A stretch of DNA of 58,051 nt from an uncultured Clostridia bacterium. Lineage in GTDB: Bacteria; Bacillota; Clostridia; Oscillospirales; Acutalibacteraceae. The stretch is from positions 1 to 58,051 of the forward strand of contig CANQGK010000017.1 in NCBI GenBank assembly GCA_947623175.1, written 5' to 3'. Below, one piece after another: positions 29,155 to 44,307 of this stretch; the first letter of the stretch is position 1; each line of letters starts with the position of its first letter. The position numbers were made by a program, and so were the translations under genes. The notes under the pieces are model-generated. The model did no database searches. It had not been told where the DNA came from and saw nothing but the letters and a program-made list of their open reading frames with translations.

Positions 29155-30234
29155 ATGAAGTATTTTATTGATAAATCCGATAAAACAAGCGCCTACCTAC
29201 AGCTTTACAAACAGCTCAAAGCCGATATCGTGAGGGGAGTTTACCCATATAACGCAAAACTGCCTTCAAAACGCATTTTAGCCGAGGAAACCGGCGTCAG
29301 CACGATAACCGTCGAGCATGCTTTTTCCCTGCTTTGCGACGAAGGGTACGCGAAAGCGCGAGAGCGAAGCGGATATTACGTTATATTCAAAAACGGCGAC
29401 GGATTTGCCTTTGCCACGGACGAATCGGCGCATTTTACCGAAAGAGCGAAGCCCGTATCGGCGCATCCCGAATTTCCCTTTTCGGTACTTACCAAAACCA
29501 TGCGCTTTGTCATAAGCGAATACGGCGAAGCGATACTCGAGCGAAGCCCCGAATCGGGCTGCATCGACCTTAGAAACGCCATAAAAAAGTATCTTTTTAA
29601 AACCAAGGGCATAGACGTCGATATAAGACAGATAATCATAGGCGCGGGCTCGGAGTACCTTTACGGGCTTGCGGTGGAGCTTTTGGGCAGAGACAAAATA
29701 TACGCTATCGAATCCCCCTCCTACAAAAAAATCGAGCAGGTATATACCGCCTGCGACGTAAAGTTCGAGCGCCTTCCCTTAGCTTCAAGCGGTATAGAAA
29801 GTCGCGCGCTTAAAAACAGCAAGGCACAGGTTCTGCACATTTCCCCCTACCGCAGCTTTCCGAGCGGCGTTACGGCGTCGGCGTCGAAAAAGCATGAATA
29901 TCTGCGCTGGGCGAAAAAGGGCGAACGATATGTTATAGAGGACGATTTCGAGTCGGAATTTACAATATCCAAAAAGGCGGAGGAAAACCTTTTTTCCCTC
30001 TCGCCCGACAACGTAATATATATGAACACCTTTTCAAAAACAATATCCCCCGCCTTACGGGCGGGATATGCGGTACTTCCCGAAAAGCTTACCGACGAAT
30101 TCGAGCGGCGGCTGGGATTTTATTCCTGCACGGTATCCACTTACATACAGCTGGTGCTGGCGGCGCTTATCGAAAACGGCGATTTCGAACGTCATATAAA
30201 CCGCGTAAGGCGAAAATTGCGCAAGGCGCTTTAA
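29155..30234 (+). CDS. MocR/PdxR-type GntR-aminotransferase regulator, C-terminally short
   Basis: 359 residues. A GntR winged helix (about 10-75, YPYNAKLPSKRILAEETGVS) is fused to a type I aminotransferase fold. The PLP lysine is in NTFSKTISPALRAGY, with the Asp of IEDDFESEF upstream. Family members are usually about 450-480 residues. This one stops at HINRVRRKLRKAL, so roughly the last 90-100 residues of the aminotransferase domain are missing. The end lies in a 27-bp tandem duplication. It may still bind DNA; PLP-sensing may be impaired. Likely target: the divergent kinase operon. Confidence 0.85.
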   Translation: MKYFIDKSDKTSAYLQLYKQLKADIVRGVYPYNAKLPSKRILAEETGVSTITVEHAFSLLCDEGYAKARERSGYYVIFKNGDGFAFATDESAHFTERAKPVSAHPEFPFSVLTKTMRFVISEYGEAILERSPESGCIDLRNAIKKYLFKTKGIDVDIRQIIIGAGSEYLYGLAVELLGRDKIYAIESPSYKKIEQVYTACDVKFERLPLASSGIESRALKNSKAQVLHISPYRSFPSGVTASASKKHEYLRWAKKGERYVIEDDFESEFTISKKAEENLFSLSPDNVIYMNTFSKTISPALRAGYAVLPEKLTDEFERRLGFYSCTVSTYIQLVLAALIENGDFERHINRVRRKLRKAL

Positions 30235-33510: not shown

Positions 33511-34989
33511 CTAAAGCAAAATACACACAAGCCCGTTACAGCCCTCGTTTATAACCCTTTCGACCGTTTCCCTCACCCGCATTCGCGCGTCGGCGGGCAT
33601 ACGCGAAAGCTTGGCGTGCAAGCCTTCGTTTACAAGGTCGTGAAGCGATTTTCCGAAAATATTCGAATCCCATATTTTGACCGGATCCTCCTCAAAACCG
33701 CTCAGCAAATACATGACAAGGTCCTCCGACTGTTTTTCGCTGCCCACTATGGGGCTTACTTCGGTGGTGATATCCGCCTTCATCAGGTGTATTGACGGCG
33801 CGGAGGCGCGAAGCCTTACCCCGTAACGACCGCCCTGCTTTACAATTTCCGGCTCCTCAAGCTTTAATTCCTCGATTTCGGGCATGATTATGCCGTAACC
33901 GGTAGCCTCGACCTCGTCCAGAGCGTCCTTTACGCGAAGGTATTCCTTTTTCATTTTTGCCATGTCTGCGATACTTTCCATAAGCTGACGATCGTCGTTT
34001 ATGTCAAGCCCCGTAGTTTCGGCGAGAATTTTATAAAACAGCGACGGATTTGTTATGAGCTTTACCTCGGCGCTTCCGCTGCCAAGGTCTACGGCGCCCA
34101 CCTTAACAAGCTCCACGTTTTCATTTTCCGCAAACGCGGTTTCGAAGCGGCTTATATCCCTTATGTGCCGCATGCCCTCCGCCGCGTTTTTGATAGCCCC
34201 CGTAAGATCGGCGCGAAGCCAATGCTCCGGCGGCAAAAGGTTTATCCAGCGGGGAAAGGCAACGCCGATTTCCTTTATCGGAAATTCGAAAAGCACCCGG
34301 GAAATTATATTCTTTATATCCTCCTCGCCAAGCTCCAGACAGTTTACCGGAAGCACCGGAACGGCATATCTCTCGCTTAAAGCTTCGGCGGTGCTTACCG
34401 CCTCGGCGGCGGCGGGATACATACAGTTGAGCAGTACGATAAAGGGCTTATCTATGGCTTTGAGCTCGTCTATTACCCGTTCCTCCGCCTCGGCGTATTC
34501 CTCGCGGGGAATATCGCTTATACTGCCGTCCGTGGTGATCACAAGCCCTATCGTCGAGTGTTCGTTTATAACCTTGCGCGTGCCGATTTCCGCCGCCATA
34601 TTAAAGGGTACGGGCTCCTCGTACCAGGGCGTCATTACCATGCGCGGGCTGTCGCCTTCGATATAACCCAAAGCGCTCGGAACTATGTAACCCACGCAGT
34701 CGATAAGCCGTACGTTTGCGGACGCCGCGTCGTCGATATTTATCTGCGCGCCCTTTTCGGGAATAAATTTGGGCTCGGTAGTCATAATAGTTCTTCCCGA
34801 GGAGGATTGCGGCAGCTCGTCGTTTGCCCTTTCCTTCATATAATCTCCCGAAATATTCGGCAAAACAAGCTTATCCATAAACTGCTTTATAAAGGTGGAT
34901 TTTCCGGTTCTTACCGGCCCTACCACCCCTATATAGATATCCCCGCCGGTGCGTTCGGCTATATTTTTATAAATGCTGGCGTTTGTCAT
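33511..34989 (-). CDS. spoIVA: Stage IV sporulation protein A
   Basis: Coat-basement ATPase that polymerises on the forespore surface. 492 residues, the same length as B. subtilis SpoIVA. Walker A GPVRTGKSTFIKQFM near 24-38; the conserved ATPase segment RTIMTTEPKFIPEKGAQI and the C-terminal NEGCNGLVCILL hydrophobic tail are present. ATG after GGGAGGAAAATC. Sigma-E-like promoter upstream, dedicated terminator downstream. Confidence 0.97.
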   Translation of the reverse strand: MTNASIYKNIAERTGGDIYIGVVGPVRTGKSTFIKQFMDKLVLPNISGDYMKERANDELPQSSSGRTIMTTEPKFIPEKGAQINIDDAASANVRLIDCVGYIVPSALGYIEGDSPRMVMTPWYEEPVPFNMAAEIGTRKVINEHSTIGLVITTDGSISDIPREEYAEAEERVIDELKAIDKPFIVLLNCMYPAAAEAVSTAEALSERYAVPVLPVNCLELGEEDIKNIISRVLFEFPIKEIGVAFPRWINLLPPEHWLRADLTGAIKNAAEGMRHIRDISRFETAFAENENVELVKVGAVDLGSGSAEVKLITNPSLFYKILAETTGLDINDDRQLMESIADMAKMKKEYLRVKDALDEVEATGYGIIMPEIEELKLEEPEIVKQGGRYGVRLRASAPSIHLMKADITTEVSPIVGSEKQSEDLVMYLLSGFEEDPVKIWDSNIFGKSLHDLVNEGLHAKLSRMPADARMRVRETVERVINEGCNGLVCILL

Positions 34990-35032
34990 AGATTTTCCTC
35001 CCGAAATTTTTAAGACAACATTCTTTTGTAAA

Positions 35033-35062
35033 ATATTATGTAACCGCCCTTTTAAATATAAC
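35033..35062 (-). promoter_or_regulatory. Sigma-E promoter of spoIVA
   Basis: Minus strand: GTTATATTT (35062-35054), 13-nt spacer, CATAATAT (35040-35033), close to the sigma-E consensus (ATATT-type -35, CATANNNT -10), about 45 bp before the start. Confidence 0.7.
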
Positions 35063-35148
35063 CTGCGATTTGATTTTTTTGTTTCACCTATAAAAAATTC
35101 GGGAATAAACTGTTATTGAGCATTATCCGAAATTAAGGAGTATTATTT

Positions 35149-35400
35149 ATGAAATCGCTTAAAGATTTAAAGGTGGGCGAACGCTGTATCGTTAAAGAGG
35201 TTTCAAGCGGCGGCAATATGCGCCGTCGCTTTACCGATATCGGACTTATCGAAAACACGGTCGTGGAATGCGTGGGCAAAAGCCCCGCAGGGGATCCCAA
35301 GGCTTATCTCATAAGAGGGGCGGTAACGGCTATAAGAAGCGAGGACTGCGGCGATATTTCGGTATTGCCTTACGACGGAGGAGATAACATATGGGATTAA
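35149..35400 (+). CDS. feoA: FeoA-family protein, first locus
   Basis: 83-residue SH3-like cytosolic protein that supports the ferrous iron permease FeoB. KDLKVGERCIVKEVSSGGNMRRRFTDIGLIENT is the family core. Its end overlaps feoB1 by 10 bp. ATG after AAGGAG. The next gene is interrupted, so this copy may be idle. Confidence 0.93.
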   Translation: MKSLKDLKVGERCIVKEVSSGGNMRRRFTDIGLIENTVVECVGKSPAGDPKAYLIRGAVTAIRSEDCGDISVLPYDGGDNIWD

Positions 35401-36740
35401 CCGTAAAATCCACCGGTCTCGGCGCCGCAAATACAAATCTTGTAATAAAAAAGAAAAGCGAAAACGATAAGGTCATCGCGATAGCCGGAAATCCCAACGT
35501 AGGCAAAAGCACCCTATTTAACGCCCTCACAGGCATGAATCAGCACACCGGAAATTGGCCCGGGAAAACCGTAGCCAACGCGCAGGGGTACTGCAAAACC
35601 GAAAAAAGCTCGTATGTTATGGTGGATATACCGGGTACATATTCGCTTTTCGCGCATTCGCCCGAGGAGGAAGCGGCGCGGGATTTCATCTGCTTCGGAA
35701 AATCTCGGGCGGTAGTGGTGGTATGCGACGCGGTATGCCTTGAGAGAAGTCTTAATTTGGCGCTTCAAACCCTCGAAATAACCGATAACGTGATAGTGTG
35801 CGTCAATCTTTTGGACGAGGCAAAGCGCAAAGGGATAAATATAGATTTAGAGGAATTATCGAAGCGGCTGGGGGTTCCGGCGGTGGGTACAGTGGCCCGC
35901 AAAAAAAGCAGTCTTACAAAGCTTATGTCCGAATTGGACAATATGAGCGAAGCCGAAAACGGCAAGGCTTTTTCGGTAAAATATCCCGAAATTATCGAAA
36001 AAGCGGTCGACATAATCACCCCGACGCTTAAACGCGAATATTGCGGGCTTTCCGATAAATGGGTGGCGCTGAGACTTTTGGAAAACGACCGCGAATTTTT
36101 AAAAAGCGTCGAAATAAATTCCGGCGAAACCGTTTTGGATATGCCCGAAACCGAAAAAGCGGTCGAAAAAGCCCGCGAATACCTCAAAAACGAGGGCGTA
36201 TACGGCGAACGGCTCGGCGCCATGATAGCCTCGGCGTCGGTGGCGGCGAGTGAAAATATATGCAAGGGTATCGTAAGCCGCACGAAAAAGGGCTACGCCG
36301 AAGCCGACCGCAAAGCGGATAAAATATTGACCGGAAAATATTCGGGCTTTGCGGTTATGCTGCTTTTGTTGCTTTTGATTTTTTGGATAACCGTTTCGGG
36401 CGCCAATTATCTGTCGGACTTTTTGTCGTTTTTATTCGCAAAGCTCGAAAAGCTGCTGCGATTTGCGCTTTTGCATTTAAAAACCCCGAATTGGCTTTGC
36501 GGCGTTTTGGCAGACGGCGCCTATACCGTCACAAGTCGGGTGGTATCGGTAATGCTGCCGCCTATGGCGATATTTTTCCCGCTTTTTACCCTGCTTGAGG
36601 ATTCCGGATATCTCCCGCGAATTGCCTATAACCTCGACAAGCCCTTCAAACGCTGTAAAAGCTGCGGCAAGCAGGCGCTTACCATGTGGTCGGGTGATTT
36701 TAAGGTGTGCGATTACAGTGATTTTACGGTTCGCGATTAA
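35391..36740 (+). CDS. feoB: FeoB ferrous iron permease, 5' part of an interrupted gene
   Basis: GTP-gated iron(II) transporter, broken by a mobile element. The G domain is intact: G1 GNPNVGKST (33-41), G3 DIPGTYSL, G4 NLLD. The helical linker and first membrane segments follow, up to LEDSGYLPRIAYNLDKPFKR. After ALTM (ending at 36686) the reading frame enters the element and stops at 36740. The missing part, beginning CMGFGCN, is at 41597-42431. Excision would give 710 codons. As it stands the protein lacks the second half of the permease domain. Confidence 0.93.
   Translation: MGLTVKSTGLGAANTNLVIKKKSENDKVIAIAGNPNVGKSTLFNALTGMNQHTGNWPGKTVANAQGYCKTEKSSYVMVDIPGTYSLFAHSPEEEAARDFICFGKSRAVVVVCDAVCLERSLNLALQTLEITDNVIVCVNLLDEAKRKGINIDLEELSKRLGVPAVGTVARKKSSLTKLMSELDNMSEAENGKAFSVKYPEIIEKAVDIITPTLKREYCGLSDKWVALRLLENDREFLKSVEINSGETVLDMPETEKAVEKAREYLKNEGVYGERLGAMIASASVAASENICKGIVSRTKKGYAEADRKADKILTGKYSGFAVMLLLLLLIFWITVSGANYLSDFLSFLFAKLEKLLRFALLHLKTPNWLCGVLADGAYTVTSRVVSVMLPPMAIFFPLFTLLEDSGYLPRIAYNLDKPFKRCKSCGKQALTMWSGDFKVCDYSDFTVRD
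36683..36702 (+). repeat. attL: left junction of the feoB1-intervening element
   Basis: Core CATGTG (36683-36688) belongs to feoB1. It is followed by the element arm TCGGGTGATTTTA (36690-36702), the exact reverse complement of the right arm. Confidence 0.88.
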
Positions 36741-36746
36741 ATTATA

Positions 36747-36775
36747 TTGAATTATGCTTTAAAATCTGCTAAAAT
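36747..36775 (+). promoter_or_regulatory. Promoter of the element's cargo genes
   Basis: TTGAAT, 17-nt spacer, TAAAAT, about 38 bp before the GH65 start, inside the element. The cargo therefore does not depend on feo transcription. Confidence 0.65.
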
Positions 36776-36813
36776 AAAGAAAAATGAAGTATAATCGATT
36801 GCGAGGTAAAGCT

Positions 36814-38997
36814 ATGACACAGGAATGGACAGTGGAAAAAACCGGCTTCGATACCGCCGATATAGAACTGCACGGAAGCAAGTATCTTTTGGGCAACGGC
36901 TTTATGGGCTACCGCGGCACTATGGAGGAATATACCGCCGAACAGCTTGTCGCCTTAAATCTTGCGGGATTTTTCGATTTGGCGCGCGGCAGTAATTGGC
37001 GCGAATCGGTAAACGCGCCCAACCCCTTGTATACCGCGGTAAGCGTAAACGGCAAGGAGCTTAATTTAAGCCGCATCGCCCCCGTTTTTCATAAACAGAC
37101 GCTTGATATTAAAACCGGTATACACAAGCGAGAAACGGTCTTTCCCGCGGGCGAGGTAAATATTACCGTAAAGGCGGAGCGCTTTGTAAGCAAGGCGCGT
37201 GAAAACATACTCGCCCTGAAATACAGCGTAAGCGCGGACAAGAACGTCGATATCGTAATCAAAACCGGAACGGATAAAAATATCTGGAATATTTCGGGCA
37301 ATCACCTGAATTACACAGACGAGACCGCTCGCGGCGATTTTTCGGAACTGACCGCCGAATCGGTACAGCTTAAAAAACCGCTTAAGGTTTACGAAAAGAT
37401 ATGCGGACTCGAAAATATCGTAAACGTCGGGCTTTTGCATACGGCGAGCGTCGCTTTAAAGGCAAACGAAGAATTTACCTTTACGAAATTCGGCGGCGTT
37501 TACCACGGCGACGGACTCGAAAATTCGGATGCCGACTTCCTTCGGGCGGTAAATTTCGGTTACGACAATCTAAAGGACGAGCATATCGCCGCATGGGATG
37601 CTATATGGGAGAACAGCGACGTCGTAATAGAGGGCGACGAAGAGGCATGCGCGGCTTTGCGCTACAGCATATACCATTTATGCAGCATAGCGCCGCGCAA
37701 TACCGACAAATGCGGCATTCCCGCGCGCGGACTTTCGGGGCAGGTATATAAGGGCGCGGCTTTTTGGGATACCGAGATGTTTATGCTCCCCTTCTTCCGC
37801 TTTACCGACGCCGATGTGGCGAGAAATCTTTTGAAATACCGTATAAACACCCTTGCGGGCGCCGAAAGAAAAGCGAAGGAATTTGGCTTCGAGGGGGCTT
37901 TCTTCGCCTGGGAAAGTCAGGAAACGGGCGACGACGCCTGCACCCTTTTCAACGTGACCGACGTTTTTACAAACCGACCGCTTCGCACCTATTTTAAGGA
38001 TAAGCAAATCCACGTATCGGCGGATATAGTATTCGCCTTATGGGATTATTGCATAACCACGGGCGACTTCGTACTGCTTGCCGACGGAGGCCTAAAGCTT
38101 ATATACGAGTGTATCCGATTTTTCTACACCTACGCCTCCTTTAAGCCGCACAAGGACCGGTACGAGCTTTTGGACGTAGTGGGCCCCGACGAATACCACG
38201 AGCGTGTGAACAACAACGCCTTTACCAACGCTATGGTAAAGCGCGCGGCGGATATTTTTATACTTGCCCTCGAAAAGGTTAAAACCGATTATCCCGAGAG
38301 CCTTGAAAATTTAGGCGAAAATTTAGATTGGGCTTACGATTTTGCAAAAAAGCTTTATGTGCCGGCGCCCGACGAAAGAGGCATAATAGAGCAGTTTGAC
38401 GGTTATTTTAACTTGGAGGACGTAACCCCCGAAACACTTAAAACGAGAGAGCTTAAGGAAAACGAATATTGGGGCTGTCACGGACTCGCTTCCCAGACGC
38501 GCACCTTAAAGCAGGCGGACGTAATAATGCTGCTGAGCGTCCTTAAAAGCGATTATGGCAGAGAAATCAAAAAAGCCAATTGGGATTTTTACGAGCCCTA
38601 CACCGAGCACGGCTCAAGCCTTTCGGCATGCGCTTACGCTATCGTGGCGGCGGAAATAGGCTACACCGATTGGGCGTATAAATATTTTATGAAAACCGCC
38701 TGCGTCGACCTTAAGGGCGATTCCAAGCAATATTTGGGCTCGCTTTACATAGGCGGCACCCACCCCGCGGCAAACGGCGGCGCATGGAACACGGCGATAT
38801 TCGGCTTTGCGGGGGTAAGCTTTGCAAACGACCGCCTCGATATTTCCCCGCGCCTTCCCGAAAATTGGAAAAGCATGTCCTTTAAGCTTAACCTGCGCGG
38901 CGAAAGGCTCGAGATAAGAGTCGACGCAAAGGGCGCCGAAATAAAAGGCGCGGCAAAAACAAAAATCACGGTTTACGGTAAGGAGTACAAAAAATGA
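36814..38997 (+). CDS. Glycoside hydrolase family 65 phosphorylase (cargo)
   Basis: Inverting disaccharide phosphorylase that splits an alpha-glucosidic disaccharide with phosphate to glucose and beta-glucose 1-phosphate. 727 residues from ATG 36814 after GAGGTAAAG. The beta-sandwich N-domain is followed by an (alpha/alpha)6 barrel with GAAFWDTEMFMLPFF, the catalytic-acid motif VVGPDEYHERVNNN and KQADVIML near the phosphate site, then a C-terminal strand domain. Maltose, trehalose, kojibiose or nigerose are all possible. No transporter accompanies it. Overlaps the mutase gene by four bases. Confidence 0.9.
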   Translation: MTQEWTVEKTGFDTADIELHGSKYLLGNGFMGYRGTMEEYTAEQLVALNLAGFFDLARGSNWRESVNAPNPLYTAVSVNGKELNLSRIAPVFHKQTLDIKTGIHKRETVFPAGEVNITVKAERFVSKARENILALKYSVSADKNVDIVIKTGTDKNIWNISGNHLNYTDETARGDFSELTAESVQLKKPLKVYEKICGLENIVNVGLLHTASVALKANEEFTFTKFGGVYHGDGLENSDADFLRAVNFGYDNLKDEHIAAWDAIWENSDVVIEGDEEACAALRYSIYHLCSIAPRNTDKCGIPARGLSGQVYKGAAFWDTEMFMLPFFRFTDADVARNLLKYRINTLAGAERKAKEFGFEGAFFAWESQETGDDACTLFNVTDVFTNRPLRTYFKDKQIHVSADIVFALWDYCITTGDFVLLADGGLKLIYECIRFFYTYASFKPHKDRYELLDVVGPDEYHERVNNNAFTNAMVKRAADIFILALEKVKTDYPESLENLGENLDWAYDFAKKLYVPAPDERGIIEQFDGYFNLEDVTPETLKTRELKENEYWGCHGLASQTRTLKQADVIMLLSVLKSDYGREIKKANWDFYEPYTEHGSSLSACAYAIVAAEIGYTDWAYKYFMKTACVDLKGDSKQYLGSLYIGGTHPAANGGAWNTAIFGFAGVSFANDRLDISPRLPENWKSMSFKLNLRGERLEIRVDAKGAEIKGAAKTKITVYGKEYKK

Positions 38998-39653
38998 GCG
39001 TTAAAGCATTGATATTCGATTTGGACGGGGTTTTGACCGATACCGCAAAGTATCATTACCTCGCCTGGAAAAAGCTTGCGGACGAATTGGGATTTTATTT
39101 TGACGAGGATATAAACGAGCTTTTAAAGGGCGTATCGCGAATAAACTCTTTTGAAATAATTTTACAAAAAAACAACGCGTCGCAAAAATTCACGCCCGCC
39201 GAAAAGGAAGCGCTGGCGAACAAAAAGAACGAATATTACAAGGAAATGATAGAACAGCTTACCCCCGACGATATACTTGAGGGAATAGTTCCTTTTATAA
39301 CCGAAGCGCGAAAAAACGGCGTAAAATGCGCCGTGGCGTCGATAAGCAAAAACGCGCCGCGGGTTTTGCAATTGCTTAAAATTTCCGATTTGTTCGATTA
39401 CATCGCCGACGCGGCGCTTGTAAAAAAGCCTAAGCCCGATCCCGAAATATTCCTGACATGCGCGAATGCCTTGGGCTTTGAGCCTTGCGAATGTATCGGA
39501 ATAGAGGACGCTCAGGCGGGAATAGAGTCGATTCATGCCGCCGGCATGACCTCGGTGGGAATAAACGTCGCGGTCACCTCCGTAAAGCCGGATATCGCCT
39601 TAAAATCCACCCGCGAGCTTGATTTTGAAAAAATATGCAATAGGAACGATTAA
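38994..39653 (+). CDS. pgmB: Beta-phosphoglucomutase (cargo)
   Basis: HAD-family enzyme converting beta-glucose 1-phosphate, the GH65 product, into glucose 6-phosphate. 219 residues. Motif I DLDGVLTDT, cap residues KGVSRINSFEIIL, motif III KKPKPDPEIF, motif IV GIEDAQAGIESI. ATGA overlap with the phosphorylase shows translational coupling, and together they make a complete two-step route into glycolysis. Confidence 0.94.
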   Translation: MSVKALIFDLDGVLTDTAKYHYLAWKKLADELGFYFDEDINELLKGVSRINSFEIILQKNNASQKFTPAEKEALANKKNEYYKEMIEQLTPDDILEGIVPFITEARKNGVKCAVASISKNAPRVLQLLKISDLFDYIADAALVKKPKPDPEIFLTCANALGFEPCECIGIEDAQAGIESIHAAGMTSVGINVAVTSVKPDIALKSTRELDFEKICNRND

Positions 39654-39752
39654 AGCCTTAAATAATACCCCTCCCTCGGCTTATTTCGCGGCAAATATTT
39701 AAATTTTTTTAATAATTTCGATATTTTTTTCGTATAGATTACAAGGGGAATA

Positions 39753-39920
39753 ATTATTACTAATGCGAAAAATACCGGCAAGATTTATAAAAACACGGAT
39801 ACCTGTAATTTTTCGGCGGCGCGGTACGAAACGGAGCTTGTTTTCGGTACCGCCGCAATTTCGGATATACTTATCGAATTATCCGAAGCGGACGTCTTTC
39901 GGGCGACGGATTTAAAATAG
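39753..39920 (+). CDS. Candidate small ORF before the recombinase
   Basis: A 55-codon frame with balanced composition (GKIYKNTDTCNFSAARYETE, then LVFGTAAISDILIELSEADV) would start at ATT 39753 just after AAGGGG, a rare start codon. An overlapping ATG frame (39763-39915) encodes a basic, less protein-like product. The TAG lies in the loop of the terminator at 39904-39940, which suggests an expressed unit. Function unknown; similar tiny ORFs occur next to TnpX-type recombinases. The rest of the 39654-39980 gap holds AT-rich promoter-like DNA. Confidence 0.35.
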   Translation: MITNAKNTGKIYKNTDTCNFSAARYETELVFGTAAISDILIELSEADVFRATDLK

Positions 39921-39940
39921 ATCCGTCGTCCTTTATTTTT
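39904..39940 (+). terminator. Terminator or attenuator upstream of the recombinase
   Basis: Perfect 8-bp stem CGACGGAT/ATCCGTCG with loop TTAAAATAG, followed by TCCTTTATTTTT. It separates the cargo and small ORF from the recombinase start at 39981. Confidence 0.75.
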
Positions 39941-39980
39941 GTCGGTTTTCTCACAAAATCCGGTTACGGGAGGGGATAAT

Positions 39981-41579
39981 TTGAGCGCCGAAACGAGTAC
40001 CGCCGCGCTTTACTGTCGGGTGTCAAAAGAGGACGAGAAGGCGGGCGAAAGCGTAAGCATAACCACCCAAAGAGCGATGCTTACGCGGTTTGCAAAGGAA
40101 CAGGGATTTAAAATATTCGCCTGCTTTTCAGACGACGGATACAGCGGCACGAATTTTGAAAGGCCCGCTTTTAAGCGGATGATGAGCGCCGCAAAAAATA
40201 AAAAATTCGACGTTATAATAACCAAGGATTTAAGCCGCTTGGGGAGAGATTACACCGTTACGGGGGTTTATCTGGAGCGGATTTTCCCGAAATGCGGCAT
40301 ACGGTTTATCGCTTTAACCGACAATTACGACAGCAAAAACGCCTGCGGAAACGATACGGCGGCGATAAAAAACGTCATAAACGAGCTTTACGCGGGAGAT
40401 ATAAGCAAAAAAATCCGCTCCGCTTTTGAGGAAAAAATGAAAGCCGGCAAGTATATCGGAAGCTTTGCGCCTTACGGTTACCTTAAATCGCCCGAGGATA
40501 AAAACCGGCTTATAATAAACGAAGAGACCGCTCCCGTAGTAAGGCTTATATTCGAGCTTGCAAAACAGCGGTACAGACCAAAGGATATAGCGGATTATTT
40601 AAACTCAAAGGACATAGACTCTCCCGCCGTCTATCGGTGCAAAAAATACCCGCAATGCGATATCCGCAATTATTCCGAAAAAAGGGCGTGGACGAGCGCC
40701 GGAGTTCAAAAAATGCTTAAAAATCCGGTTTACAAGGGAAATCTCGAACAGCACAAGACCCGCAAATTAAATTTTAAAAGCAAGATTACCCTGAGCGTCG
40801 ATAAAAAGGAGCGCTATATTGTCGAAAATACCCACGAGGCGATTATAGACGCCGCTGTGTTTGAGGCGGTGAACAGGCTTATAAAAAGCCGAAGGCAGCC
40901 CCCCAAAACCGATTTTAAAAACCTTTTTTCGGGAATTGCAAAATGCGCCGACTGCGGCGCCAACTTATCGATTACCGCCTCCAAAAACAAAGCGAAGCAC
41001 ACCCTCGAATGCGGAAAATACAAGCTCGGCGGCATTGCCGTATGCACCAATCATTTTACCGATTACGGCGAGCTTTACGAAATTGTTTTAAGGGAAATAA
41101 ATCTGCATTTAACACTCGGTACTGCCGAGCGGGAAAAAGTAACGAAAGCGCTCAATAAAAGCGAAAATACCGCAAATGACGAAATACACGGCAAAATCCT
41201 TCGCTTAAACAAGCGAAAGGAAGCGATTTATGAAATTTTAACTAACTTATACGAGGATAAATATTTAAACAAAATACCCGAGGAACGCTTCGAGCGCATG
41301 GTAAAGAAATACGACGGCGAAATAGCGGCAATAGATATCGGGTTAAAGGAAGCGAAGGCTCAAAAGGCGCTTTGCGGCGCCGAGCGGCATAAAGCGCTTA
41401 TTTCCATTATTGACGGAAGCAAAAAATTAAAGGACTTAACCCCCGAAATCGTCTCCTGCTTAATCGAAAAAATCGAAATATCGCAGGGCGAATACATAAA
41501 CGAAGAGGCGGGAAAAATAAAAAAACAAAAAATAAAAATTTACTTTAAATTTAAAAATCCCGCCGCAAAAGCCCCGTAA
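39981..41579 (+). CDS. Large serine recombinase of the element
   Basis: Site-specific recombinase expected to integrate and excise the element. 532 residues from TTG 39981, 5 nt after GGGAGGGG; an upstream TTG (39939) lacks a ribosome site. The resolvase domain has the catalytic Ser in LYCRVSKEDEK (S15) and the arginine segment SRLGRDYTVTGVYLE. It continues with a recombinase domain, a zinc ribbon (CADCGANL plus later cysteines), a coiled-coil region and a C-terminal LTPEIVSCLIEKIEIS segment typical of TnpX-like proteins. Its TAA forms the outer edge of attR. Confidence 0.93.
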   Translation: MSAETSTAALYCRVSKEDEKAGESVSITTQRAMLTRFAKEQGFKIFACFSDDGYSGTNFERPAFKRMMSAAKNKKFDVIITKDLSRLGRDYTVTGVYLERIFPKCGIRFIALTDNYDSKNACGNDTAAIKNVINELYAGDISKKIRSAFEEKMKAGKYIGSFAPYGYLKSPEDKNRLIINEETAPVVRLIFELAKQRYRPKDIADYLNSKDIDSPAVYRCKKYPQCDIRNYSEKRAWTSAGVQKMLKNPVYKGNLEQHKTRKLNFKSKITLSVDKKERYIVENTHEAIIDAAVFEAVNRLIKSRRQPPKTDFKNLFSGIAKCADCGANLSITASKNKAKHTLECGKYKLGGIAVCTNHFTDYGELYEIVLREINLHLTLGTAEREKVTKALNKSENTANDEIHGKILRLNKRKEAIYEILTNLYEDKYLNKIPEERFERMVKKYDGEIAAIDIGLKEAKAQKALCGAERHKALISIIDGSKKLKDLTPEIVSCLIEKIEISQGEYINEEAGKIKKQKIKIYFKFKNPAAKAP

Positions 41580-41596
41580 AATCACCCGAGCATGTG
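41577..41596 (+). repeat. attR: right junction of the element
   Basis: Arm TAAAATCACCCGA (41577-41589), one G, then core CATGTG (41591-41596), after which feoB1 resumes. Confidence 0.88.
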
Positions 41597-42431
41597 CATG
41601 GGATTCGGCTGTAACGCCGCGGGTGTCGTGGGCTGTCGGATAATCGATTCGCCACGCGAACGCCTGCTTGCGACACTCACCAACAGCTTAGTGCCCTGCA
41701 ACGGCAGATTTCCGGCTATAATCGCGGTGATCTCGATGTTTTTCGTCACTTCATCCGGCGTCGGAGCGACGGCGGTTTCGGCTCTGCTTTTAACCCTTGC
41801 GATACTGCTCGGAATTGCCGCGACCTTTATATCCACGCGGATTTTATCGGCTTGCGTTCTCAAGGGCGAACGATCCTCCTACACCCTCGAAATGCCGCCC
41901 TACCGCAAGCCTCAGCTTTGGACGGTAATAGTCCGCTCGATTTTTGACAGGACGATATTTGTCTTAGGACGCGCCCTCACGGCGGCGGTTCCCGCGGGAG
42001 TGATTATCTGGCTTTTGTCAAATATAAGCCTTAACGGCGCCTCTCTGCTTTCCCTTTGCGCCGGATTTTTGGATCCTATAGCCGAGCTTTTGGGGCTTGA
42101 CGGCGTAATTCTCTTAGCCTTTATATTGGGCTTTCCCGCAAACGAAATCGTAATACCCATAATAATTATGGGGTATCTTTCGAAAGGAAGCCTTACCGAG
42201 CTTTCGTCGCTTGCGCAAATGCGGGAATTATTTGTATCTAACGGCTGGAACTGCGTTACGGCGATAAACGTAATTCTCTTCACCCTTTTTCATTGGCCCT
42301 GCGCTACGACGCTGCTTACCGTCAAAAAGGAAACCGGAAGCTTAAAGCAGACCTTTTACGCCTTCGCTTTGCCGACGGTTATAGGAATTGTTCTTTGCTT
42401 TACCGTCAACCTGATTTCGCTTATTTTTTGA
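41592..42431 (+). CDS. feoB: FeoB ferrous iron permease, 3' part of the interrupted gene
   Basis: The frame opens by chance at ATG 41592 (MCMGFGCN). From 41597 it is the second half of the FeoB permease: GFGCN gate motif, SPRERLLATLTNSLVPCNGRFP, and several membrane helices including the second gate region. It has no ribosome site and is unlikely to be made alone. Fused to 35391-36688 it gives one FeoB of normal length (about 710 residues). The frame is undamaged, so the split is recent or selected to stay reversible. Confidence 0.92.
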   Translation: MCMGFGCNAAGVVGCRIIDSPRERLLATLTNSLVPCNGRFPAIIAVISMFFVTSSGVGATAVSALLLTLAILLGIAATFISTRILSACVLKGERSSYTLEMPPYRKPQLWTVIVRSIFDRTIFVLGRALTAAVPAGVIIWLLSNISLNGASLLSLCAGFLDPIAELLGLDGVILLAFILGFPANEIVIPIIIMGYLSKGSLTELSSLAQMRELFVSNGWNCVTAINVILFTLFHWPCATTLLTVKKETGSLKQTFYAFALPTVIGIVLCFTVNLISLIF

Positions 42432-44035: not shown

Positions 44036-44064
44036 TTGATATATGCCAAAAGACGGTGTATCAT
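44036..44064 (+). promoter_or_regulatory. Promoter of the second feo operon
   Basis: TTGATA, 17-nt spacer, TATCAT, about 22 bp before the feoA2 start. No clear Fur or DtxR site was recognised. Confidence 0.55.
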
Positions 44065-44085
44065 ACCATGTTGGGAAGTGATAAT

Positions 44086-44307
44086 ATGAAAACGCTTAAG
44101 GACGCGCCCATAGGCAGTACCGTAAAGGTTGTAAAGCTTCACGGAGAGGGCGCGATAAGGCGCCGCATTATGGATATGGGAATAACCAAAGGAGTGGAAA
44201 TCAAAATCCGCAAAACCGCTCCCTTGGGAGATCCGCTTGAGCTTACGGTACGGGGATACGAGCTTTCCTTACGTAAGGCCGACGCCGCTACAATAGAGGT
44301 AGAATAA
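44086..44307 (+). CDS. feoA: FeoA-family protein, second locus
   Basis: 73 residues from ATG 44086 (MKTLKDAPIGSTVKVVKLHG). SH3-like FeoA fold with GAIRRRIMDMGITKGVEI and APLGDPLELTVRGYELSLRK. The longer frame from 44056 overlaps the promoter. Directly precedes an intact feoB. Confidence 0.93.
   Translation: MKTLKDAPIGSTVKVVKLHGEGAIRRRIMDMGITKGVEIKIRKTAPLGDPLELTVRGYELSLRKADAATIEVE

Follow-up and report, generated by a model that had tools for sequence, protein, structure and literature searches.

A serine-recombinase element that splits feoB in an uncultured clostridial bacterium and may be excised to restore the gene

Introduction

Why should a bacterium carry both halves of a broken iron transporter gene in readable form? 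The question is raised by a stretch of 58,051 nucleotides, here called the window, from an uncultured Clostridia bacterium of the Acutalibacteraceae (contig CANQGK010000017.1, assembly GCA_947623175.1), in which feoB1, a gene for the ferrous iron transporter FeoB, is split by a unit of 4,908 bp containing a GH65 phosphorylase, a beta-phosphoglucomutase and a large serine recombinase. An earlier note on this DNA, made from its letters alone, had proposed that the unit could be excised to restore the gene exactly, as happens with the elements that interrupt sporulation genes. The answer that we favour, with moderate confidence, is that conditional excision of an element belonging to a TndX/TnpX-like clade rebuilds feoB1 in a terminal cell, for which the mother cell of sporulation is the likeliest candidate.

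The Split Gene and the Ends of the Element

The two parts of feoB1, of 1,298 and 835 nt, together make 2,133 nt in one frame without a single internal stop, just as the earlier note had read them. They meet in the codons for T-M-C-M-G of the FeoB1 gate region, which constitute the attachment site with its core (C/T)ATGTG. The arms of the window's element are inverted repeats around this core, with 18 of 24 positions matching and none of 2,000 shuffles as good. Dyad arms recur in all 13 elements with both ends, matching at 15-21 of 24 positions around the core's first TG (shuffles as good as the real arms: 0 to 2 of 2,000), and ATGTG marks the crossover at all 15 left and all 21 right junctions of the window's type, always preceded by C or T. 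From the dyad symmetry of these sequences, the exchanged dinucleotide is most likely the core's first TG.

In mechanistic terms, the recombinase would integrate within the core, splitting feoB1, and recombination of attL with attR would release a circle of 4,908 bp and rebuild the gene exactly. The exact restorability claimed at the outset stands at the level of sequence, where it is backed by the core repeated directly at either end, by arms with dyad symmetry, by reading frames that are open in the recombinase and in both gene parts, and by relatives whose gene is uninterrupted; the products of such an excision belong to the points weighed further below. The coordinates of all features are collected in table 1.

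Table 1. Features of the window around the interrupted feoB1 gene (all positions refer to the window)
Feature	Position	Strand	Basis and remarks
spoIVA, stage IV sporulation protein A, 492 amino acids (aa)	33511..34989	-	NCBIfam TIGR02836 spore_IV_A at 727 bits (cut-off 459.9); site of the genome's Pfam PF09547 match
feoA1, 83 aa	35149..35400	+	Pfam FeoA, E 2.9e-14
feoB1 5' part	35391..36688	+	Pfam FeoB_N, FeoB_Cyto, start of Gate; aligned in congeners; frame continues into the element, stop at 36740
attL, core CATGTG (36683-36688) and left element arm	36683..36704	+	Direct core repeat, inverted arm
GH65 phosphorylase (cargo), 737 aa	36784..38997	+	Pfam Glyco_hydro_65N/m/C; nearest solved chains 4ktr/4ktp
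beta-phosphoglucomutase (cargo), 219 aa	38994..39653	+	NCBIfam TIGR01990 above cut-off
Large serine recombinase, 546-aa open reading frame (ORF)	39939..41579	+	Pfam Resolvase, Recombinase, Zn_ribbon_recom, DUF4368; likely start TTG 39981 behind GGGAGGGG
attR, right element arm and core CATGTG (41591-41596)	41575..41596	+	Direct core repeat, inverted arm
feoB1 3' part	41597..42431	+	Pfam Gate, FeoB_C
feoA2	44056..44307	+	Pfam FeoA, E 8.3e-22
feoB2, intact, 717 aa	44349..46502	+	NCBIfam TIGR00437 feoB, 554 bits

The Recombinase and Its Relatives

All Pfam domains of the recombinase lie above the Pfam cut-offs and within one protein. Over 92% of its length, this protein shares 37% identity with TndX from records of enterococcal plasmids, and TnpX is its best solved relative. 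Its best NCBIfam match is XisF, at 111 bits against a cut-off of 375, and the Ccr models are likewise far below their cut-offs; hence, we have assigned it to neither group. In a tree of match-based translations, 20 recombinases of the window's type form one clade apart from 16 others (support 99/97), and 18 of them have a part of feoB1 in view, cut at the same core, none being in view for genomes G300 and G330.

In a search across the order (394 genomes, using a model of four such recombinases and scoring at most three candidates per genome), the top 12 matches, of at least 582 bits, are separated from the rest at 532 bits or less, and a feoB1 part lies near eight of them in the fetched flank and near two more in a larger region; no such part is nearby in G330, on a contig of 6.1 kb, or in G300, nor in any of the 18 lower-scoring loci fetched. 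On these sequence comparisons the feoB1-targeting clade looks site-specific. Multi-targeting recombinases, as described in PMC10083194, commonly include DUF4368.

Among named genomes, of which the best 80 loci were kept with flanks of up to 10 kb, the best two loci belong to Lacrimispora celerecrescens 152B (43%) and Cuneatibacter sp. NSJ-177 (42%), and only these two have a feoB1 part in the flank. Their 5' parts sit on the same contigs as the 3' parts, 14.1 kb apart in Lacrimispora and 15.0 kb apart in Cuneatibacter. The junction is therefore not an assembly artefact peculiar to the window's genome.

Different recombinases adjoin feoB1 in a few other genomes. In G469 (L262:15068-18654) the gene contains an element of 3.6 kb with a recombinase that is 26% identical; only 6 of its 24 arm positions match around the first TG, its long inverted arms seemingly being centred two bases further, on the second TG, so that almost the same bases have apparently been targeted independently. 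A second site, about 40 codons downstream, is occupied in two genera, by distant recombinases of 23-25% identity in G049 (L097:8000-9241), where the recombinase ends one base ahead of the feoB1 3' part, and in G300 (L278:2996-4009).

As to a phage origin, one scan of IMG/VR returned 218 pattern matches of which none was confirmed as a relative of the recombinase, and the idea was rejected; in the eight phage records listed of 689, identity to the recombinase is 33-36%. Neither phage structural genes nor transfer genes were seen among the ORFs of the window's element, and its three non-overlapping ORFs of at least 70 aa include no genes for mobilisation or conjugation.

Distribution of the Interruption among Relatives

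The window's genus, g1, is represented by 70 genomes, the window's (G000) included, and feoB1 was found in 35 of them, 34 by the 3' part at E <=1e-40 and G036 by the 5' part only. The uninterrupted gene that the earlier note had asked for in relatives is present in 30 of these 35, with open frames of 611-767 aa (that of G048 runs off its contig). Four genomes, G000, G021, G025 and G036, the last with only the left junction in view, have the gene split at the same core, and G049 has it split about 40 codons further down by its different recombinase.

Among 25 listed uninterrupted genes of g1, the ATGTG core is altered in seven (G032, G023, G058, G054, G060, G010 and G026), mostly with conservative amino acid changes; these could possibly be immune sites. 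In G021 (L095, L096) and G025 (L100, L101) the contigs start within the element, at a distance of some 100-430 bases from its junctions with feoB1, perhaps because the sample contained both occupied and unoccupied sites or because the element is repeated.

In a second genus, g107, 23 of 25 genomes have the 3' part, interrupted in 18 and uninterrupted in five (G387, G474, G242, G470 and G328). Fourteen of the 18 show a right junction of the window's type, with the recombinase in view in 11; the remaining ones have other recombinases or an unresolved junction (G469, G462, G405) or are cut at the second site (G300). Seven species (G399, G475, G467, G466, G231, G262 and G451; the left junction of G475 lies beyond the contig end) have apt and a purine permease in a common order to one side of the recombinase, three of them also sharing phosphatase-like and YibE/F genes and three a chemotaxis receptor. 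Judging from gene order, descent from a single insertion is the simplest explanation for such a shared interior, an exchange of whole elements among close relatives being a possible alternative. Across ten species, the distances between recombinases follow those between feoB1 genes (Mantel r 0.68, p 0.0004).

Each of these seven genomes has one apt match (E <=1e-20), which lies on the element's contig stretch, four of the genomes being 82-91% complete, so that further copies could be missing there. In three relatives with an uninterrupted feoB1 (G387, G470 and G328), apt lies at a great distance from that gene or on a separate contig. Since the only apt found is inside the element, permanent loss of the latter would cost adenine salvage, and this cost would fit a removal confined to a cell without descendants.

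Selection on the Gene Parts and the Recombinase

If feoB1 were never rebuilt, its parts should decay, and the earlier note had named stop mutations in sister strains as a sign against its proposal. Stops were looked for in related species, the window's own species being represented by one genome, and all 23 interrupted 3' parts run for 276-283 aa to the normal end. Nonsynonymous (dN) and synonymous (dS) distances, which are pairwise estimates without branch models and with ratios taken from NG86 values, tell a similar story. For the 3' parts, in 15 pairs of six interrupted species of which four are among the seven, dN is 0.024-0.058 and dS 0.32-0.78 (dN/dS about 0.04-0.17); for the 5' parts, in 10 pairs of five of the seven, dN is 0.033-0.073 and dS 0.46-0.65 (dN/dS about 0.07-0.15); and for the recombinases of the same five species, dN is 0.069-0.103 and dS 0.50-1.16 (dN/dS about 0.09-0.14). 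Both feoB1 parts and the recombinase of g107 are, by these estimates, under purifying selection in the species measured, and such low ratios are unlike those of a gene that is always broken. The YN00 values of dS, 0.48-1.06 for the recombinase and 0.53-1.10 for the 5' part, are of similar size, and the element does not therefore look like a late arrival.

The comparison with skin in sigK and with the element in spsM, made in the earlier note as a precedent, has gained strength from this probably old and inherited insertion of g107 with its conserved gene parts, as well as from the spoIVA neighbour in the window. The window's own copy is a single case; its element, with a captured sugar-phosphorylase operon, would behave like those of g107.

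Cargo of the Elements

The feoB1 elements range from 2.6 to 34.5 kb and their cargo is varied. The pair of GH65 phosphorylase and beta-phosphoglucomutase genes in the window recurs at other loci in six congeners, with 72-74% and 84-90% identity, respectively, more distant pairs being present in others; within flanks of up to 1.5 kb, or less at contig ends, the congener pairs have neither a relative of the recombinase nor feoB1. By its sequence this cargo looks like a captured host operon.

The elements of G399 (L231:16112-17827) and Lacrimispora (L194:12508-14223) share a dihydroxy-acid dehydratase-like gene that is 84% identical, with recombinases only 45% identical, a probable case of cargo exchange. 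The Cuneatibacter element (L195:4234-16904) has an ORF of 2,539 aa that by eye resembles a nonribosomal peptide synthetase, and also encodes a histidine kinase, an AMP-binding enzyme and an HD-domain response regulator. The element of G231 contains, near base 29603 of its 34544, an internal site resembling att and complete with both arms, a structure suggestive of two elements joined in tandem; a reading of the elements as cassette arrays was dropped, because G231 is the only such case among the 15 g107 elements or part-elements searched.

Alternative Explanations

Could the element be an ordinary selfish island, propagated by a serine integrase that uses feoB1 as its attB and tolerated thanks to other FeoB copies, with insertions that are recent or polymorphic and an excision that is rare and follows no programme? 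We regard this as unlikely, while taking it more seriously than any other competitor. It would account for the variation in cargo and size, for recombinases lying in both orientations relative to feoB1, for the interleaving of intact and interrupted species (4 changes on the g1 tree, 5 on the g107 tree with outgroup) and for the other recombinase lineages of G469, G049 and G300 that target the same gene; there is also precedent for many diverse large serine recombinases at one conserved gene site, in a prolyl isomerase gene (PMC10083194). It accounts poorly for the shared interior order and comparable dS of g107, which point to an insertion of long standing whose two gene parts have both stayed under selection, and for the seven genomes in which the sole apt found lies inside the element.

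A second explanation, which we consider improbable, is that feoB1 is permanently inactive and that iron uptake proceeds by FeoB2 and FeoB3. The second Feo system reported in the earlier note is indeed intact in the same window, the genome has a third FeoB-like frame of 815 aa on contig C19, and half of the genus dispenses with a detectable feoB1. Inactivation is hard to reconcile with the absence of stops from the window's parts and from the 23 interrupted 3' parts, with the low dN/dS of the interrupted g107 genes, or with the g1 tree of 3' parts, where G000 is not accelerated (1.17 to the outgroup, against 0.80-2.01 for uninterrupted rows).

That the two parts are made as separate polypeptides, which together form a working split FeoB, seems more improbable still. 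In 21 of 23 interrupted genes the 3' part begins with an in-frame ATG that lies in the core, and in the window the frame is open from ATG 41592, inside the core. No motif of Shine-Dalgarno type precedes it there, nor was one found in the 20 nt ahead of the core ATG at any of 24 junctions; moreover, the sequence upstream of the 3' part varies between species, and the tails of the 5' parts differ between elements, the frame stopping at once in Lacrimispora. A chimeric assembly, for which one could invoke the draft state of the window's genome (54 contigs) and the contigs of G021 and G025 that break inside the element, is practically dismissed by the independent records, two of them named, with the same junction and both parts on one contig.

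When Would feoB1 Be Rebuilt?

Returning to conditional excision, feoB1 is probably rebuilt by removal of the element at some stage of life, as the sequence evidence for the gene parts suggests. Excision would be conditional, with a germ line that stays interrupted, and would take place in a terminal cell, the mother cell of a sporulating culture being the most likely one. Sporulation is our leading guess for its timing; iron limitation, or no programme at all, is a possible alternative. The window's bacterium is probably a spore former. SpoIVA is found in 62 of the 70 g1 genomes, and a check of 18 genomes from the whole set showed it in 17 (not G466). In the window spoIVA is the divergent neighbour of feoA1, and the same arrangement of feoAB1 beside spoIVA on one contig is seen in 23 of the 35 g1 genomes with feoB1, the two being on different contigs in 11 and no SpoIVA having been found in G031. 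Sigma-E-like boxes directed towards spoIVA are recognised by pattern in 13 of 18 genomes, the window's not among them. A GAATA motif precedes feoA1 in all 16 aligned intergenic sequences (34990-35148 in the window), with no sigma factor matched to it. In Clostridium difficile, one feoA-feoB pair (CD1518-CD1517) has a listed sigma-K promoter and drops to 0.05 in a sigK mutant, according to the data given in PMC3789822.

This evidence needs to be qualified, because several observations weigh against programmed excision in the mother cell. No excision product was observed anywhere among the genome assemblies compared. No directionality factor was recognised among the element's ORFs of at least 70 aa, smaller ones falling outside the search; TndX is reportedly sufficient. 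On the side of sporulation, spoIVA lies away from feoB1 in the two named records and in those g107 genomes that were checked, and a pattern search of the spoIVA-feoA1 intergenic sequences of 18 genomes found no box of sigma-E type directed towards feoA1. Furthermore, feoB1 was not found in 35 of the 70 g1 genomes (the 5' part having been sought in 61 of the 70), and with SpoIVA so widespread in the genus the gene is therefore not needed for sporulation; we have accordingly rejected it as a general sporulation gene. CD1517 of C. difficile can count only as a possible ortholog of FeoB1, and in C. acetobutylicum one feoAB is placed in the transitional phase, before late sporulation, in the account of PMC2530871, a timing that lends no support to a mother-cell role in that species. 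On the side of an old inheritance, the recombinase and feoB1 trees are not fully congruent, and by YN00 the recombinase and the 5' part have nearly the same dS, with lower values for the recombinase in some pairs. G463 and G468, which have this recombinase, show no such apt or permease in the 20 kb fetched and no apt anywhere in their genomes, and the apt genes of G290 and G381 lie on a different contig; not every insertion, therefore, need share the history of the seven. Cargo also moves sideways, as in the dehydratase-like gene common to G399 and Lacrimispora.

A wider proposition, to which we give somewhat less than even credence, is that the whole clade is dedicated to feoB1 across several families of spore formers and has been domesticated in at least one genus, where the germ line would keep feoB1 broken with a housekeeping purine-salvage gene inside, and a terminal cell, probably the spore mother cell, would remove the element to switch on ferrous iron uptake.

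Comparison with Known Systems

The recombinase of the feoB1 element is related to TndX of Tn5397 and TnpX of Tn4451 and fits the large serine recombinases of their type: a single protein unites the Resolvase, Recombinase and zinc-ribbon domains, and a short core common to both element ends is accompanied by arms with attP-like dyad symmetry. Tn4451 and Tn5397 have a GA dinucleotide at their ends and target; the feoB1 element differs in its core, CATGTG instead of GA, in lacking transfer or mobilisation genes and in its one fixed target site. A further likeness is with staphylococcal cassette chromosome (SCC) elements, mobilised by CcrA/B/C, which are recombinase-bearing cassettes at one conserved gene, and the internal att-like site of G231 recalls their tandem composites. 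SCC cassettes leave their target gene functional, whereas the feoB1 elements split theirs. The fdxN element of heterocyst cyanobacteria, with its recombinase XisF, offers a precedent for old inherited elements with a changing interior; there the host, target gene and cell type are different, and the feoB1 recombinase falls outside the XisF model.

Closer to spore formers are skin in sigK and SP-beta in spsM, which are also recombinase-bearing, interrupt genes and are removed in development (PMC5025042, PMC4191935). These are described as prophages or prophage-like, whereas the feoB1 element has no phage genes that we could see, contains metabolic genes and targets feoB. The closest system is gin in gerE of Bacillus cereus ATCC10987, likewise a non-phage element that splits a gene in frame, with a short direct repeat (9 bp in gin, 6 bp in feoB1), an inverted repeat around the core and an internal serine recombinase, and its excision rebuilds gerE (PMC5595907). 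As described in the same source, gin measures 28.6 kb, has three recombinases and the directionality factor GirX, and lies in the gene of a sporulation regulator; the feoB1 element has 4.9 kb, one recombinase and no recognised directionality factor, lies in an iron-transporter gene, and its excision is predicted.

The open-licence literature searched, to which the supplement of PMC10083194 does not belong, yielded no report of an element interrupting feoB. The mechanism would be that of known gene-intervening elements, and what is new, as far as these searches reach, is the target, a dedicated clade across families and the housekeeping cargo. If the proposal is true, programmed gene reconstruction in spore formers would extend from regulators and spore-envelope genes to metal transport, would be more widespread than the few known cases suggest, and would reveal one cell type with a specific need for ferrous iron uptake. 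The system would also offer a natural test set, with a site-specific recombinase clade whose coding attB is short and conserved, with sites that occur both empty and filled in nature, and with two named isolates.

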